NCBI RefSeq assembly: GCF_900114435.1
Contig: NZ_FOZK01000001.1
Span: forward strand, 62,001 to 126,000
Direction: 5' to 3'
Source of the DNA: Halomicrobium zhouii
GTDB lineage: Archaea; Halobacteriota; Halobacteria; Halobacteriales; Haloarculaceae
Length of the DNA stretch: 64,000 bases
The notes beneath the pieces are model-generated. The model had not been told where the DNA came from and made no database searches. It saw only the letters and a program-made list of their open reading frames with translations. How positions within the stretch are numbered: the stretch's first letter is position 1; the number at the start of each line of letters is the position of its first letter. Shown here one piece after another: positions 28,139 to 36,275 of this stretch. A program made the translations under genes and the position numbers.

Positions 28139-30694
28139 TCAGTCCGCGGCCTTCCGGCTGGCCTTGGGCGCGCGTCGGCCGCCCAGGGTGTATAGCCACA
28201 GCAGTCCCAGGCCGACCAGGAAGGCGATGGTGATGGGGATGGCCACGAGGAACATCGTCCAGATTCCCTTCGGGGAGAACAGCGCACCGGCTGCGAACAC
28301 GCCGAGGGTGATGGTGCGCCAGCGCTCCTGGAGCGTCTGGAAGGGGACGATGCCGCCGCGGTGGAACAGCAGCATCGTCACCGGCACCTCGATGAGGAGG
28401 CCGACGCCGACAGTGAACATCAGCACCAGCCACCCGAACTTGGCGACGCGGTAGGAGATGATCATGTCCGCCTGGAGGACGTCGTAGGCGAGCCAGGAGA
28501 TGACCGTGGGCGCGACGTAGAGGAACCCGATGAGACTCCCGCCGATGAGGGTGAGGAAGACGGTGCCGCCCCAGACGCCGAGTACGTTCCGGTCACCACC
28601 GACGAGCCCGCGCTTCTCCATGGCGGGCCAGGCGAAGTACAGCAGGAGCGGCACGACGGAGATGGCCCCCATGATGGTCGAGAACTTCACGATGAAGATG
28701 AGGTGCTCGACGGGGTGGAGCGTGATGAAGCGGACGTCCTCTTGCATCTCCGGCGGGAGGTGGGAGACGAAGGCGTTCTTGATGATGCCGATGCCGGATG
28801 TGGTGTCGACGACGGGTTCTTGCTGGACCAGCACGGTCGCGTTCTCGATCCGGTAGGGGCCGCCGGGCTCCGAGATGTTCTGGCCAGTCACCGTCGCGTT
28901 GTACAGCAGGACGGAATCGTTTTGCAGCACGGCTGTGCTCGGTCTCGCGCCGGAGTCCCCCGTCCCCTCCCGCGTCGTCAGGACGGCGTTACTCGCGACG
29001 GCGTCTGCCCGCCCGCTGGTCTCGTTACGAGCGAGGACAGTGACGCCCTCGTTGAGCACGTCGACGTTCTCGGCGACGACGGTGCCGTTCTCCGCGATGA
29101 CGGTCCCGCCGTCGGCCATCGCCGCGGCGCCGGCGCCGGGGATGCCCGAGTAGAGGAAGACGAAGACGACGCTCGTGACGATCATGAACGTCGCGACGAA
29201 CCAGATGGCCTTCGAGGTGAGCGAGTCGAAGATGAAGGCCAGGTCGTGGTAGTAGCCGCCGATGTCGTCCTCGGTGGTCTCCTCCTCCGTGAAGGCGTTG
29301 AGCATCCCCGCGGAGGTCTCGGTGAAGACGCCCCCGCCCTCTTCGTCCTCGGGTTCGGCGGGGCCTTCGGTCGCGCCCTCGCCGCCTTCGGCGGCCGCCC
29401 CGTCGCTCGCGTGTATCTGGTCGAACCGGTCGAGGATGGCCTGGGCCTTGTCCGTGTCGTCGTCGCTCATGGCCTGGTCGGCCAGCTTGAGCGCCTCGGT
29501 CTCCTCCATCTCCTCGAAGGCCTCGCGCGGCGCAGCGCGGACCGCGTCCGCGGAGAGTGACCCGACGTCGATGGCGGTCGGGTCGCCGAAGTTCCCGGCC
29601 TCGGCGGCGGCGACGCCGAGTTCCTGGATCATGTAGTAGTACAGCACCAGGACGGCCGCGAGCAGGCCGACGGCCGCGCCGATGAGCAGTGCAGTCGTCT
29701 CCGGCGGGAGGCCGAACCAGGCCGGTTGCTGGATGTCGCCAGTGAGTTCGTCCGAGGGGAACCAGGCGGCGAAGCGCTGGACGTAGCCGAACGTAGTGGG
29801 GGAAGCGATGACGTAGGTGACGAGCGCGCCGACGACCAGCGCGGCGGCGGCGAGCTTGTTCCAGCGCGCCCGGGCGACCGACCGGGCGCTGACCTCTTCG
29901 CCCGCCCGCTTCGCCTGGACGAGCATCTTCGAGATGCCGAGGCTGATCGCGTACAGCCCCACGAGCGGCGCGGCCCACATGATCTGGGTGAACGGGTCCG
30001 GCGGCGAGAACAGGGCGCCGAAGCCGAAGATGGCGACGACGGCCCACTTCCAGCGGTCCCGGAACGTCTCGTAGGGGACGATGCCGGAGTAGGAGAGCGC
30101 ACTCATCATCAGCGGCATCTGGGCGGCGAGGCCGAACGACATCCCCAGCAGCGCGATGAACTGGACCCACAGCACGATGGAGTAGTTGGGCTGGAAGTCC
30201 GCGTTCAGCGCGTTCTCGGCCAGGAAGCCGAACATCAGGGGGAAGAACAGTTCGTACGCGTACACGACGCCGCCGACGAACAGCGCGAGGCTGGTGACGG
30301 CGATGGCGCCGATCTTCCAGGTCGCCACCTCGTCGCCGGGCCAGAAGCCCCGTTCGCGCAGCGCGTCGCGGCTGAGGTAGATCAGAATCGGCAGCGCCAC
30401 CAGAATCCCGGCGACGGCGCCGATCTTCACCTGCAGCAGGATGACGTCGAACGGCGTGACCGCGATGACCTTGGAGGCCTGCGACGTCGTCAGGTCCATC
30501 TTCGAGTACAGCAGGTCCCGCTTGAGCTGGTCCCACAGGAAGCTCTGCAGGACCATGATAGTCGCGAGCAGGACGACCACCCAGACGATGAACACCTTCT
30601 GCAGGTGCTTCTGGGCGGTCCGGAGCATGGTCCCGGCGGTCTCCCGACCGCTCTGGACCGTCCGCATCGTGTCCTCGTCGAGCCCACTCGCCAT
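28139..30694 (-). CDS. tatC2: Twin-arginine translocase subunit TatCt (double TatC)
   Basis: 851 aa from ATG 30694, chosen over ATG 30736 because a TATA-like TTGATAA lies 30 nt upstream. Two complete six-helix TatC domains are fused: the first about residues 30-330 (with PPDPFTQIMWAAPL), the second about 490-840 (PVEHLIFIVKFS, SPKGIWTMFLVAIP), joined by extra helices and an acidic linker. This double TatC with 14 helices is specific to haloarchaea and serves their extensive Tat export. It faces tatCo divergently. No tatA gene is in the window. Confidence 0.9.
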   Translation of the reverse strand: MASGLDEDTMRTVQSGRETAGTMLRTAQKHLQKVFIVWVVVLLATIMVLQSFLWDQLKRDLLYSKMDLTTSQASKVIAVTPFDVILLQVKIGAVAGILVALPILIYLSRDALRERGFWPGDEVATWKIGAIAVTSLALFVGGVVYAYELFFPLMFGFLAENALNADFQPNYSIVLWVQFIALLGMSFGLAAQMPLMMSALSYSGIVPYETFRDRWKWAVVAIFGFGALFSPPDPFTQIMWAAPLVGLYAISLGISKMLVQAKRAGEEVSARSVARARWNKLAAAALVVGALVTYVIASPTTFGYVQRFAAWFPSDELTGDIQQPAWFGLPPETTALLIGAAVGLLAAVLVLYYYMIQELGVAAAEAGNFGDPTAIDVGSLSADAVRAAPREAFEEMEETEALKLADQAMSDDDTDKAQAILDRFDQIHASDGAAAEGGEGATEGPAEPEDEEGGGVFTETSAGMLNAFTEEETTEDDIGGYYHDLAFIFDSLTSKAIWFVATFMIVTSVVFVFLYSGIPGAGAAAMADGGTVIAENGTVVAENVDVLNEGVTVLARNETSGRADAVASNAVLTTREGTGDSGARPSTAVLQNDSVLLYNATVTGQNISEPGGPYRIENATVLVQQEPVVDTTSGIGIIKNAFVSHLPPEMQEDVRFITLHPVEHLIFIVKFSTIMGAISVVPLLLYFAWPAMEKRGLVGGDRNVLGVWGGTVFLTLIGGSLIGFLYVAPTVISWLAYDVLQADMIISYRVAKFGWLVLMFTVGVGLLIEVPVTMLLFHRGGIVPFQTLQERWRTITLGVFAAGALFSPKGIWTMFLVAIPITIAFLVGLGLLWLYTLGGRRAPKASRKAAD

Positions 30695-30720
30695 CTTTGC
30701 CGTTGGTAGCCCGCTGCCCG

Positions 30721-30727
30721 TTATCAA
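30721..30727 (-). promoter_or_regulatory. Putative TATA box of tatCt
   Basis: TTGATAA on the minus strand, centred 30 nt from ATG 30694. Confidence 0.4.
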
Positions 30728-30806
30728 TTTGTTCATCAGGACTCCGGTCCGCGCCGGGCCGCGGGAAAAGAAAGTTTACAACAGCGAGTGGCCAAACCCG
30801 GGACAG

Positions 30807-32687
30807 ATGGGCGATCGCCGAGACACCGAGCCGGGCGAGGACGACGGGCCAGCGGGTGCCAGCGGCGGCGATCCCGACGACGATCCCGGGGACGACGCCG
30901 GGATCACGAACGACATCGGTGGAGAGGGCGACGCCGGGAACGAGGACGACACCGGGAACGGTACCGACACCGAGGTCGAAGAAGACACCGAGGAGTCCTC
31001 GGACTCCTACCGGGAGCAGTCCTCCATCGACTTCGACGGCAAGATGGGCGACCCGAGCGACTACACCGAGGGCAGGGAACCGCCCGAGTGGGTCGAGGAG
31101 GTCAAGCGAGAGTCGGGTGACGACGAATCCGAGGGTGACGACGAAACCGAGGGTGACGACGAGAGCGTCGAGGCCGATGAAGGTGCCGACGAGAGCGACG
31201 ACGGTGACGAGAGCGATACCGACGAGGTCACCGGCGACGAGATCACCGCCGCCGACCCGTCCGGTGGCGACGCCGACGACGGGGCCGACGACGACGCGGA
31301 CGACGACGCCTACGAGATCGGTCCCAGCGAGGCGTCGGCGGTCAGGAATGAGGCGGCGCCCGGCGGCCCCGCGGGCCACGACCCGGTCGCCGCCGGCGCC
31401 GGTGGTGGCGGCGGTGGCGGCGGTGGCGCACTCGGCGGCGCGACGGCGCCGGACGACGAGGAGATGCCGCTCACCGAACACGTCGAGGAGATGGCGCTGC
31501 GGTTCATGGCCGTCGGTCTCGTCGTCGTCGGCGTCGGCGCCATCACGCTGTTCTACGCTGACGAACTGATCAACTTCCTCTGGTACTCCTTCCTGGGTCC
31601 CGGCCAGCAGACCTGCCTGGAGGGATCGTTCCTGGGCGGGCGGCTGTCCGTCACCGACGCCTGTCCCGACTCTGTCAGCCCGCGGATCTACCACCCGCTC
31701 GCGCTCGTGCTCGCGCGTCTGAAGGTGGCCTCGCTGGTCGGGATCATCGCCGCGCTCCCGGTCGCCGTCTACCAGACCTACCGGTTCATGCGCCCCGGTC
31801 TCTACCCCCGCGAGCGCCGGTACTACCTCGCCGCGGTCCCGACGAGCCTGGTGCTCGCGGCCGTCGGCGTCGGCTTCGCCTACTTCGCCGTCCTGCCGGC
31901 GATGTTCTCGTACTTCACGAACTACAGCGAGCAGGCCGCCGAGATCGCCTTCGGCCTGACGGAGACGTTCAACCTCATCGTCCTGATGATCGGCTTTTTC
32001 GCCATCGTCTTCCAGATCCCGCTGCTCGTGATGCTCGCCATCATGATGGGCGTCACGACCCGCCGGTGGCTCGAAGACCGCCGACTGTACTTCTGGGGTG
32101 GCTTCGGCGCGCTGGCGTTCGTGTTCAGTCCCGACCCGACCGGGATGGCGCCGCTGATGGTCGCCGTCACGATGATCGGCCTGTTCGAGGGGACGCTGTT
32201 CCTGCTCCGCTGGACCGACAGCGACTCGCCGCTGTTCGACCCGGCGGCCTTCGCCGAACGGCGGCCCTACGCCTGGGCGCTGGCCGTCGCCGCGGGCTAC
32301 CTCGCCAGCGCGGCGCCGCTGCCCGGCAGCTACTACGAGCAGTTCCCCGCCCTCGTCCAGAGCACGCTGGAGTTCAACGACCTGGTCGCGATGACGCCGA
32401 TCATCACCGCAGTCGTCCTGATCGGCCTGTTCGAACTGCTGGCCTATCTGGTCCGCAACTACTCGCGGAACGTCCGTGTCTGGGACGTCGTCAACCGCGC
32501 CCGGGTCCCCTACTGGATCCTCGCGCTGGTCGTCGGCTACTTCGCCAGTCCGAACCCGCCGGGCCTCCAGACCGTCGAGGCGCTCGCGCTGCCCCAGTCC
32601 GAGGCCGTGGCCGTCACCGCGGGCCTCATCGTCGGCTTCGAACTGCTCATCCTGACGCTGCGCTGGCGGAAGCAGCGAATGGAGTGA
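30807..32687 (+). CDS. tatC1: Twin-arginine translocase subunit TatCo with long acidic N-terminus
   Basis: 626 aa from ATG 30807; the frame continues upstream only as a shadow of tatCt. Residues 1-210 are disordered, dominated by Asp/Glu/Gly with repeats such as DDETEGDDES, and a Gly-rich run. The TatC domain follows (PLTEHVEEMALRFMAV to FSPDPTGMAPLMVAV), with additional helices at the C-terminus beyond the six canonical ones. TatCo binds twin-arginine signals; the acidic extension is a salt-adapted feature whose role is unknown. Divergent from tatCt across 112 nt, with GTTTACA at about 30773 as a candidate promoter. Confidence 0.88.
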   Translation: MGDRRDTEPGEDDGPAGASGGDPDDDPGDDAGITNDIGGEGDAGNEDDTGNGTDTEVEEDTEESSDSYREQSSIDFDGKMGDPSDYTEGREPPEWVEEVKRESGDDESEGDDETEGDDESVEADEGADESDDGDESDTDEVTGDEITAADPSGGDADDGADDDADDDAYEIGPSEASAVRNEAAPGGPAGHDPVAAGAGGGGGGGGGALGGATAPDDEEMPLTEHVEEMALRFMAVGLVVVGVGAITLFYADELINFLWYSFLGPGQQTCLEGSFLGGRLSVTDACPDSVSPRIYHPLALVLARLKVASLVGIIAALPVAVYQTYRFMRPGLYPRERRYYLAAVPTSLVLAAVGVGFAYFAVLPAMFSYFTNYSEQAAEIAFGLTETFNLIVLMIGFFAIVFQIPLLVMLAIMMGVTTRRWLEDRRLYFWGGFGALAFVFSPDPTGMAPLMVAVTMIGLFEGTLFLLRWTDSDSPLFDPAAFAERRPYAWALAVAAGYLASAAPLPGSYYEQFPALVQSTLEFNDLVAMTPIITAVVLIGLFELLAYLVRNYSRNVRVWDVVNRARVPYWILALVVGYFASPNPPGLQTVEALALPQSEAVAVTAGLIVGFELLILTLRWRKQRME

Positions 32688-34254: not shown

Positions 34255-34316
34255 GCCAGTATCACTCGTGCGAACAGTCGCCACCATTCATATACTATGA
34301 TCGACGATAGCAGGTG

Positions 34317-36275
34317 ATGGACGACTGGGTGGACCCGGGGGAGACGCTCGAGACGGCGTCGTTCGAGCGGCTGTACAGGGGCGCGCTGGAGCTGGCGTCG
34401 TCGGTCGAACGGACTCGCGCGGCGACGCTGGTCCTGCTGACCGGCCGGCTGGGACTGACCCTCGAGGAGGCGCTGCATTGCAACGAAGGGTGGGTCGACT
34501 GGGAGCGTGCCGAGTTGCAGGTCCCCGAGAAGGATCCCTGTGCCTGTGCCGGGTGCTGGGAACTGGCTCGCCGGCGCCGGGAGCACACGGACCCGATCCG
34601 GGAGGTACTCTACGAGGAGTGCTGGTCGCCGTCGCCCGACAGGGCGCCCCGGACCGTTCCGTTCGGCTGGTCACGGCGGATCAGCGCGGCGCTGCTGGCG
34701 ACGGCCGACCGGTACCTGCTGGATCTGTTGCCCGGGGACGCCCGGGAACTCCTCCGGGCCGCCGGCGAGGCCGCGGACGGTATCGAGCCCGACGACCTCA
34801 CGCCGGGGCTGCTCGCCGCCACGACCGTCGACTTTCTGTCCGACCTGGGGCTGGAAGCCGACGGCACCGCGGCCGTCCTCGGCGTCGGCGAGGCGCGGGT
34901 CGAACCCTACGCCGCCGCCGGCGAGTCCGACGTGACGACCCGGATGGCCCGCCTGGCGGGCGTCGACGGCAGCGCCGACCCCGAATCGGCGTTCCCGGTC
35001 GCCTGCGGAACCGAGGCCTTCGAGTCGGAACCGTTCGACGTCGGGGCGGCCGACGCCGACGCACTGGCCGAGCGAGCAACCGCGACCGACGCCCCCGAGC
35101 GGGTCCCGCGGCCGACCGACCTGCCGGCGTCCGTGGACTACGACCCGGCCGACCACGCCGCGGCGGGCGGCCCGAACAGGCGGACCGACGCCGGATCGTG
35201 GGCGGAGGGTCCGAGTGCTGCCGACGGGAACGAAAACGCGCTCCGCGCGGACGGGGCGTCGGCGGTCACGGGTGCCGACCGCGGTCGCGCCGGCCTACCC
35301 GACGATCCGTCCACAGCGAGCGGCAGCCAGGCGACGGCGCCCGACGTGACCTGCGCCCGCGACGTCGTCACCCAGCCGGTCGTCGCGGACTTCTCGACCC
35401 GCGCCGCCGCCGACGGGCTCTGTGGCGGCCGCGAGATTCCCGGCCGGGTCATCCTCGGGCAGGAAGAGCTGTTCGTCCTCTGGAGCGAGGAGAAGGGCGC
35501 CGAGGACGCCGACGCGCCGCACCTGCTGGTCCCCCTCGAGGACGTCTGGGACGTCCGCATCGACGACGTCCCCGGTCGCCTGAGCGCCTCGTTCCCCCAC
35601 GCAGTCACCGTCGGCCACCGGCCGTCGGGCCGCGACGAACTCGCCGTCAGCATCCAGCTCCCGCCCGCCCAGCGCCGGGACATGGCGTCGGCGCTGTACC
35701 GCATCCTCCTCAACGTCACGCCGATGACGGTCGTCGACCCGGCCCGGGAGGGCGGACGCGTCACCGACGCCGACCCGGAGGAGATGGTGCTGTACGTCCG
35801 ACCCCACGGCGTCGCGTTCACCGACGAGGCCGGGGACGCGGCGCGCCTCGCCTTCGACCTCTCGGACGTGGTCGACGTCGAACGCATCGAACGGAGTTTC
35901 GACGGCGAGAGCCGACCGGCCGTCCAGCTCCGCAGGGTCACGGACAATCGACCGGTGACGACGGTCGTCACCGCCGCGGACGACCGCCTGCGCCGCCTGG
36001 TCTGGCGCTACGTGCGCCGGGAGTACCACCAGACGCTGGCGACGGTCCGCGGGATCCGGCTCTCCGACGCCGAGAAGATGGTGATGGTCGCGCTGTACTC
36101 CACCGACGGCACGCCGGATCTGGGCTCGCTGCTGGACCTGACCGAACAGGAGCTTTCGGCGGCGCTGCAGTCCCTGGCCGCCAAGGAGCTCGTTCGCTCG
36201 GCCGAGGCGGCCACGGACCTCACCGGAACGGGCCAGCTCGCCGTGAGCGACCGCCTCGAGAGCGTGAACCACTAA
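34317..36275 (+). CDS. Degenerate tyrosine-recombinase domain fused to CheF-like domain
   Basis: 652 aa. Residues 30-205 follow the haloarchaeal integrase layout: VLLTGRLGLTLEEALH (box I, where the catalytic Arg position reads Thr48), DWERAELQVPEKDPCACAGC (Cys cluster 75/77/80), RTVPFGWSRR, LTPGLLAATTVDFLSDLGL (box II, H-x-L-R lost) and VEPYAAAG (Tyr198). A disordered linker (205-340) leads to residues 342-650, which match CheF (adaptor between Che proteins and the archaellum): VADF, PGRVILGQEELFVLWS, VDPAREGGRVTDADPEEM, VDVERIER, LVWRYVRREYHQTL, MVMVALYSTDG. Probably a non-catalytic, domesticated regulator. No che or arl gene is adjacent. ATG 34317 chosen; GTG 34314 possible. Confidence 0.7.
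   Translation: MDDWVDPGETLETASFERLYRGALELASSVERTRAATLVLLTGRLGLTLEEALHCNEGWVDWERAELQVPEKDPCACAGCWELARRRREHTDPIREVLYEECWSPSPDRAPRTVPFGWSRRISAALLATADRYLLDLLPGDARELLRAAGEAADGIEPDDLTPGLLAATTVDFLSDLGLEADGTAAVLGVGEARVEPYAAAGESDVTTRMARLAGVDGSADPESAFPVACGTEAFESEPFDVGAADADALAERATATDAPERVPRPTDLPASVDYDPADHAAAGGPNRRTDAGSWAEGPSAADGNENALRADGASAVTGADRGRAGLPDDPSTASGSQATAPDVTCARDVVTQPVVADFSTRAAADGLCGGREIPGRVILGQEELFVLWSEEKGAEDADAPHLLVPLEDVWDVRIDDVPGRLSASFPHAVTVGHRPSGRDELAVSIQLPPAQRRDMASALYRILLNVTPMTVVDPAREGGRVTDADPEEMVLYVRPHGVAFTDEAGDAARLAFDLSDVVDVERIERSFDGESRPAVQLRRVTDNRPVTTVVTAADDRLRRLVWRYVRREYHQTLATVRGIRLSDAEKMVMVALYSTDGTPDLGSLLDLTEQELSAALQSLAAKELVRSAEAATDLTGTGQLAVSDRLESVNH

Follow-up and report, generated by a model that had tools for sequence, protein, structure and literature searches.

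A haloarchaeal protein joining an apparently inactive tyrosine-recombinase fold to the taxis adaptor CheF

In archaea, CheF links chemotaxis of the bacterial type to the archaellum. One gene in the 64,000-nucleotide stretch of Halomicrobium zhouii DNA analysed here (the window) encodes a CheF protein headed by a tyrosine-recombinase fold. An open reading frame of 652 amino acids was confirmed at 34317-36275 on the forward strand; its third-position GC is 0.91, as coding frames here would show, and it has orthologues in 14 other genomes. The start codon is ATG 34317, with GTG 34314 as a possible alternative, and a TATA-like CATATACTA (34289-34297, forward strand), about 20-28 nt upstream of the ATG, could give the gene its own leaderless promoter. 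The anatomy of both halves is supported alike by profiles, AlphaFold models and PDB comparison. On the same strand, the gene encodes an apparently inactive tyrosine-recombinase catalytic domain of the Int1 type (residues 9-212; 34341-34952), whose fold extends over residues 6-216, a middle region (residues 213-280; 34953-35156), a variable linker (35157-35351) that is disordered in the model (pLDDT <50 over residues 282-344), two CheF PH-like domains (residues 355-571; 35379-36029) and a CheF C-terminal tail domain (residues 572-652; 36030-36272) that the model and PDB comparison show to be winged-helix-like. The AlphaFold model of the full protein, built from 41 aligned sequences, had a mean pLDDT of 82 and was confident at residues 1-200, 221-260 and 351-640. 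Structural comparison of the two parts thus recovered the tyrosine-recombinase and CheF folds that the first-pass annotation had proposed. We found no description of a CheF-integrase fusion in the open-access literature, and the architecture appears to be undescribed so far; it is a new one made from known families, its anatomy being well supported and its function predicted. Archaeal fam30-04 recombinases with BAT and HTH_10 domains also have a recombinase domain joined to regulatory domains, but their partner domains are others than CheF (PMC8371274).

A direct Pfam search of the fusion protein gave nothing significant for the N-terminal part, and searches of that part against Pfam, NCBIfam and, by phmmer, the PDB gave none or only chance matches (HigA, 0.0067), so that profiles of its relatives were required. 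BLAST relatives were stand-alone proteins of about 220-320 residues from many haloarchaea. All 13 that were sampled matched PF00589 (Phage_integrase), with R, K, H-x-x-R, W and Y invariant. The profile built from these 13 recombinases matched residues 10-192 of the fusion with 82.5 bits, and when run against the entire genome it found the fusion as the only gene (3.7e-24). Profile-profile comparison of the stand-alone relatives with the fusion N-parts gave a probability of 100% and an E value of 6e-42 over 206 columns. To be independent of the stand-alone relatives, residues 1-290 were also modelled in AlphaFold with no sequences other than the fusions as input (pTM 0.84). Tyrosine recombinases and protelomerases filled the first 35 places among the PDB matches of this model (Z 14.0 to 7.2), the best being the archaeal Xer 4a8e (Z 14.0, 157 residues, rmsd 3.0), and the first unrelated entry followed at Z 2.7. 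The likeness to the integrase catalytic domain noted earlier therefore stands on both profiles and fold, though the domain begins near residue 6 and not at residue 30. A core-binding (SAM-like) domain is absent from the fusion, there being no room for it ahead of residue 6; the stand-alone Int1-type relatives likewise begin at the catalytic domain.

The fusion-only profile scored Int1 of the virus phiH at 110 bits, and sequence places the recombinase part in the haloviral Int1 family, that of the phiH tail-fibre invertase. Int1 (PhiH1_175 of phiH, ORF35 of phiCh1) is the recombinase of an invertible tail-fibre segment, inside which the phiH gene sits (PMC6210493). Like the fusions, it is a catalytic-domain-only tyrosine recombinase with a Cys motif. 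The motif reads Cys75-x-Cys77-xx-Cys80 in the window copy (34539-34556, forward strand), is invariant in 15/15 fusions and may form a metal knuckle. Unlike the fusions, Int1 retains the Lys, H-x-x-R, Trp, Tyr and box I Arg. Judging by the architecture of the fusion, what was once a viral enzyme seems now to serve in the taxis pathway.

Five of the six catalytic residues (R-K-H-R-H/W-Y) are replaced in the window copy. As first read, the box I Arg position is a Thr (Thr48; 34458-34460, forward strand) and box II H-x-x-R has become Gly164-Leu-Leu-Ala167 (34806-34817, forward strand); the catalytic Lys position is Ser106 (34632-34634, forward strand) and the Trp position Val190. Tyr198 at the nucleophile position (34908-34910, forward strand) is indeed the one residue remaining here, as it is in the close relative from a second Halomicrobium genome (G063). 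As a functional sign it fails, because the position varies within the fusion clade and is Phe in most orthologues, which leaves Tyr198 without functional weight. Of the 15 fusions, none retains the Lys or the Trp, 14 have lost the His and 12 the Tyr (mostly to Phe), a pattern from which we conclude that the domain is dead family-wide as far as sequence can tell: a homologous domain and not an active recombinase. An active enzyme working through Tyr198 was considered and ruled out, since Tyr occurs in only 3/15 fusions and Lys in none. The Arg is lost less often (box I in 6/15, box II in 3/15), and the differing replacements at each catalytic site indicate that decay continued separately in each lineage. 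In the G094 member (L009) R, H and R are still in place, with Phe at the Tyr position. The stand-alone relatives have the full catalytic set. Loss of catalysis with retention of the fold in an apparent cellular signalling protein, as seen in this family, is rare among tyrosine recombinases.

The dead fold is nevertheless more strictly conserved than its CheF partner and is thus most likely still functional. Among the seven genera, residues 9-120 are the best-conserved stretch, with 47% mean identity, as compared with 32% in the second half of the recombinase domain, 32% in PH1, 26% in PH2 and 36% in the tail. The N-part has 20 invariant positions, including the three cysteines. Comparison of the window gene with its G063 orthologue (94% identical) gave an overall dN/dS of 0.19 (recombinase 0.23, middle region 0.085, CheF about 0.15), values from which the fusion is judged to be under purifying selection.

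The C-terminal half matched Pfam PF04283 (CheF-arch) at residues 356-571 (E 4.3e-22; 79.4 bits vs a gathering threshold of 25), and its top PDB match was the CheF crystal structure 7ovp (Z 16.9, 261 residues aligned). CheF had been placed at residues 342-650; Pfam and 7ovp bear out the identity, with a start near residue 355. The PDB comparison matched the tail to MarR-type winged helices (Z 12), and a profile search matched it to the tail of Methanococcus CheF in its crystal structure with CheY (7od9; 1.5e-5). The half thus shows the CheF architecture of two PH-like domains and an elongated tail. In studied CheF, the tail dimerises and binds CheY-P, and it is probably the PH-like domains that are turned towards ArlCDE (PMC9126983).

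In a tree of 67 CheF domains, CheF1-type and CheF2-type copies separated, the CheF2 type being assigned by the locus arrangement (HEAT protein, CheF1, CheF2) and the C-terminal ending, with OE2404R not in the tree. All fusion CheF domains fell into a single 100/100 branch within the CheF2-type half, together with one non-fusion member. That member (L062:10324-11283, genome G098) is a very divergent second stand-alone CheF-like gene on a long branch, lying in tandem with the G098 fusion, 323 bases upstream. It alone keeps the fusion CheF domains from forming a strict clade, and their monophyly was not rejected (p-AU 0.12). On contig 2 of the window genome, its own CheF1 and CheF2 genes adjoin one for a HEAT-repeat protein, an arrangement known from Halobacterium (PMC2666748), and these canonical copies score 200-229 bits vs 83 for the fusion. 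The fusion resembles haloarchaeal CheF2 (OE2404R type; PF04283) in its PH-PH-tail layout, CheF2-type branch and C-terminal ...LE-VN- ending; it differs in its divergent CheF part, its location outside the che gene regions and about 350 extra N-terminal residues with the recombinase fold. Halobacterium CheF2 binds CheY, CheD, CheC2, FlaCE and FlaD, and its deletion has a weak phenotype only (PMC2666748). By relationship, these five would be the likeliest partners of the fusion.

We consider it probable that the protein is a CheF2-type taxis adaptor in which an inactive recombinase fold has been exapted as a module for binding. A binding scaffold in motility or taxis, as also suggested in the first-pass annotation, is the best-supported functional reading that we infer. 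A dead Int1-type domain would be joined by the conserved middle region and the loose linker to a CheF2-type CheF, which would dimerise through its tail, take CheY-P there and use its PH-like domains to contact CheD or the archaellum switch (ArlCDE). The retained fold would bind, most likely, a protein partner, and would thereby place or modulate the fusion adaptor alongside canonical CheF1 and CheF2. The N-domain of the window copy has a charge of -7.4 per 100 residues vs about -2 in the stand-alone relatives; this acidity, together with the loss of the Lys and Args that touch DNA in active enzymes, favours a protein partner for the window copy. Such a family would offer a genetic handle on the role of the second haloarchaeal CheF.

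Several findings count against this adaptor reading. Ordinary CheF genes lie in che regions as a rule, to which two exceptions in H. marismortui have been noted (PMC2666748); the fusion genes, in contrast, lie outside the che and arl clusters. No conserved neighbours were found across genera, sharing being mostly within genera. One protein is common to five fusion loci, some kilobases off, and at one of them (L063) it is a response-regulator/GAF/BAT/HTH_10 regulator. The patchy distribution, the weak phenotype of CheF2 deletion and the Args retained in part of the family are further points against. ArlD/E were present in 15/15 genomes carrying the fusion gene, and canonical CheFs wherever the fusion was intact; however, the background of ArlD/E in Halobacteria is 78% and the genomes are related, so that the co-occurrence is not significant, and we dropped it as proof of a role. 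With genome G137 (81% complete), which has a remnant of the gene, no ArlD/E and a broken CheF, the pattern is at most suggestive of a taxis role.

The retained Args point to a different use of the fold, which we regard as possible but unlikely: the dead domain may still bind a DNA site to which the CheF part brings CheY-P or a motor adaptor, for transcription control of motility genes or positioning of the complex. The inactivated tyrosine recombinase TnsF of Tn6022 is a precedent for a dead recombinase serving as a binding module, there a DNA-site selector, although it has core-binding domains and zinc fingers and selects transposon targets, with no taxis link (PMC10293859). The Arg is kept in 9/15 (box I) and 12/15 (box II) fusions, so DNA binding may persist in some of them; the strong conservation of the first half of the recombinase domain and the MarR-type match of the winged-helix-like tail also fit a DNA-binding effector. 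Set against these are the acidic window copy, which has lost the Lys and both Args, the absence of the core-binding domain and a DNA neighbourhood that is not conserved. It seems rather unlikely to us that the fusion puts a former viral DNA invertase, exapted for site-specific DNA binding, on a chemotaxis output adaptor, through which CheY-P would reach both DNA and motor; if it does, taxis signalling would act directly on gene control or on motility-complex placement.

The distribution of the gene bears on a further reading. The fusion was found in 11/391 genomes of a class-wide sample, and this sample together with a family-wide search yielded 15 genomes in seven genera and two families; in the window's own genus it occurs in 2/7 genomes (the window genome and G063). 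In a congener (G064:C1:1469343-1471276; L140) the epimerase and HtpX genes lie 165 bases apart and the fusion is absent, an empty site indicating gain or loss as a single gene. In G202 a frameshift, either genuine or due to a sequencing error, breaks the gene in two (L101:8504-10635), and the G137 remnant (L065:8988-9425) encodes 146 amino acids, with the start of the recombinase domain joined straight to the CheF tail. This frameshift, remnant and empty site, with the patchy occurrence, would suit an accessory gene on its way out, an old fusion drifting without a taxis role. We consider that improbable in view of the low dN/dS, frames open in 14/15 genomes from seven genera and the invariant N-part positions. 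In the recombinase tree, the N-parts of the fusions come together as one clade (99/99), so that the fusion is traced to a single origin; it is essentially one clade on both halves, as judged from the two trees. In both, the copy from G035, a genome of family f1, clusters with those from family f4, a placement suggestive of lateral transfer.

Around the window fusion gene lie two TatC genes, TspO, epimerase, HtpX (named from sequence) and PspAB, and no mobile-element genes are evident there. This chromosomal setting, together with clade-wide catalytic loss, single origin and purifying selection, upholds the description of the recombinase as domesticated. The TatC genes (28139-32687) are divergent, and one encodes 865 amino acids with two tandem TatC stretches. 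Downstream of the G111 fusion is a dCTP deaminase gene with an intein (L061:5563-7857; Intein_splicing and LAGLIDADG matches).

Its homology to the tail-fibre invertase Int1 and its retained fold might also suit a dominant-negative subunit that regulates an active Int1-type recombinase through mixed oligomers. We think this very improbable: at E<=1e-15, a search for further Int1-type relatives came up empty in 11/15 fusion genomes, among them that of the window, so that a cognate partner in the same genome was rejected for these, and the CheF part would be left unexplained. That two genes were run together by annotation or assembly has a negligible chance, as nothing beyond the unusual pairing speaks for such an artefact and it is refuted by the recurrence of the fusion in 15 genomes, as a single clade by either half.

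A related Int1-type group comprises seven proteins (L103:7991-9460, L104:8342-9811, L105:8203-9672, L106:8335-9774, L099:3904-5556, L066:8268-9935 and L111:7480-8847) that share the middle region with the fusions, lack CheF and end in a C-terminal hydrophobic helix, probably a transmembrane anchor. Their catalytic residues are largely intact, the full set being present except for His to Arg in two. Three of them (L103, L104 and L105) are 88-89% identical although they come from two families, which makes mobility probable. Membrane anchoring would be unusual for a recombinase.
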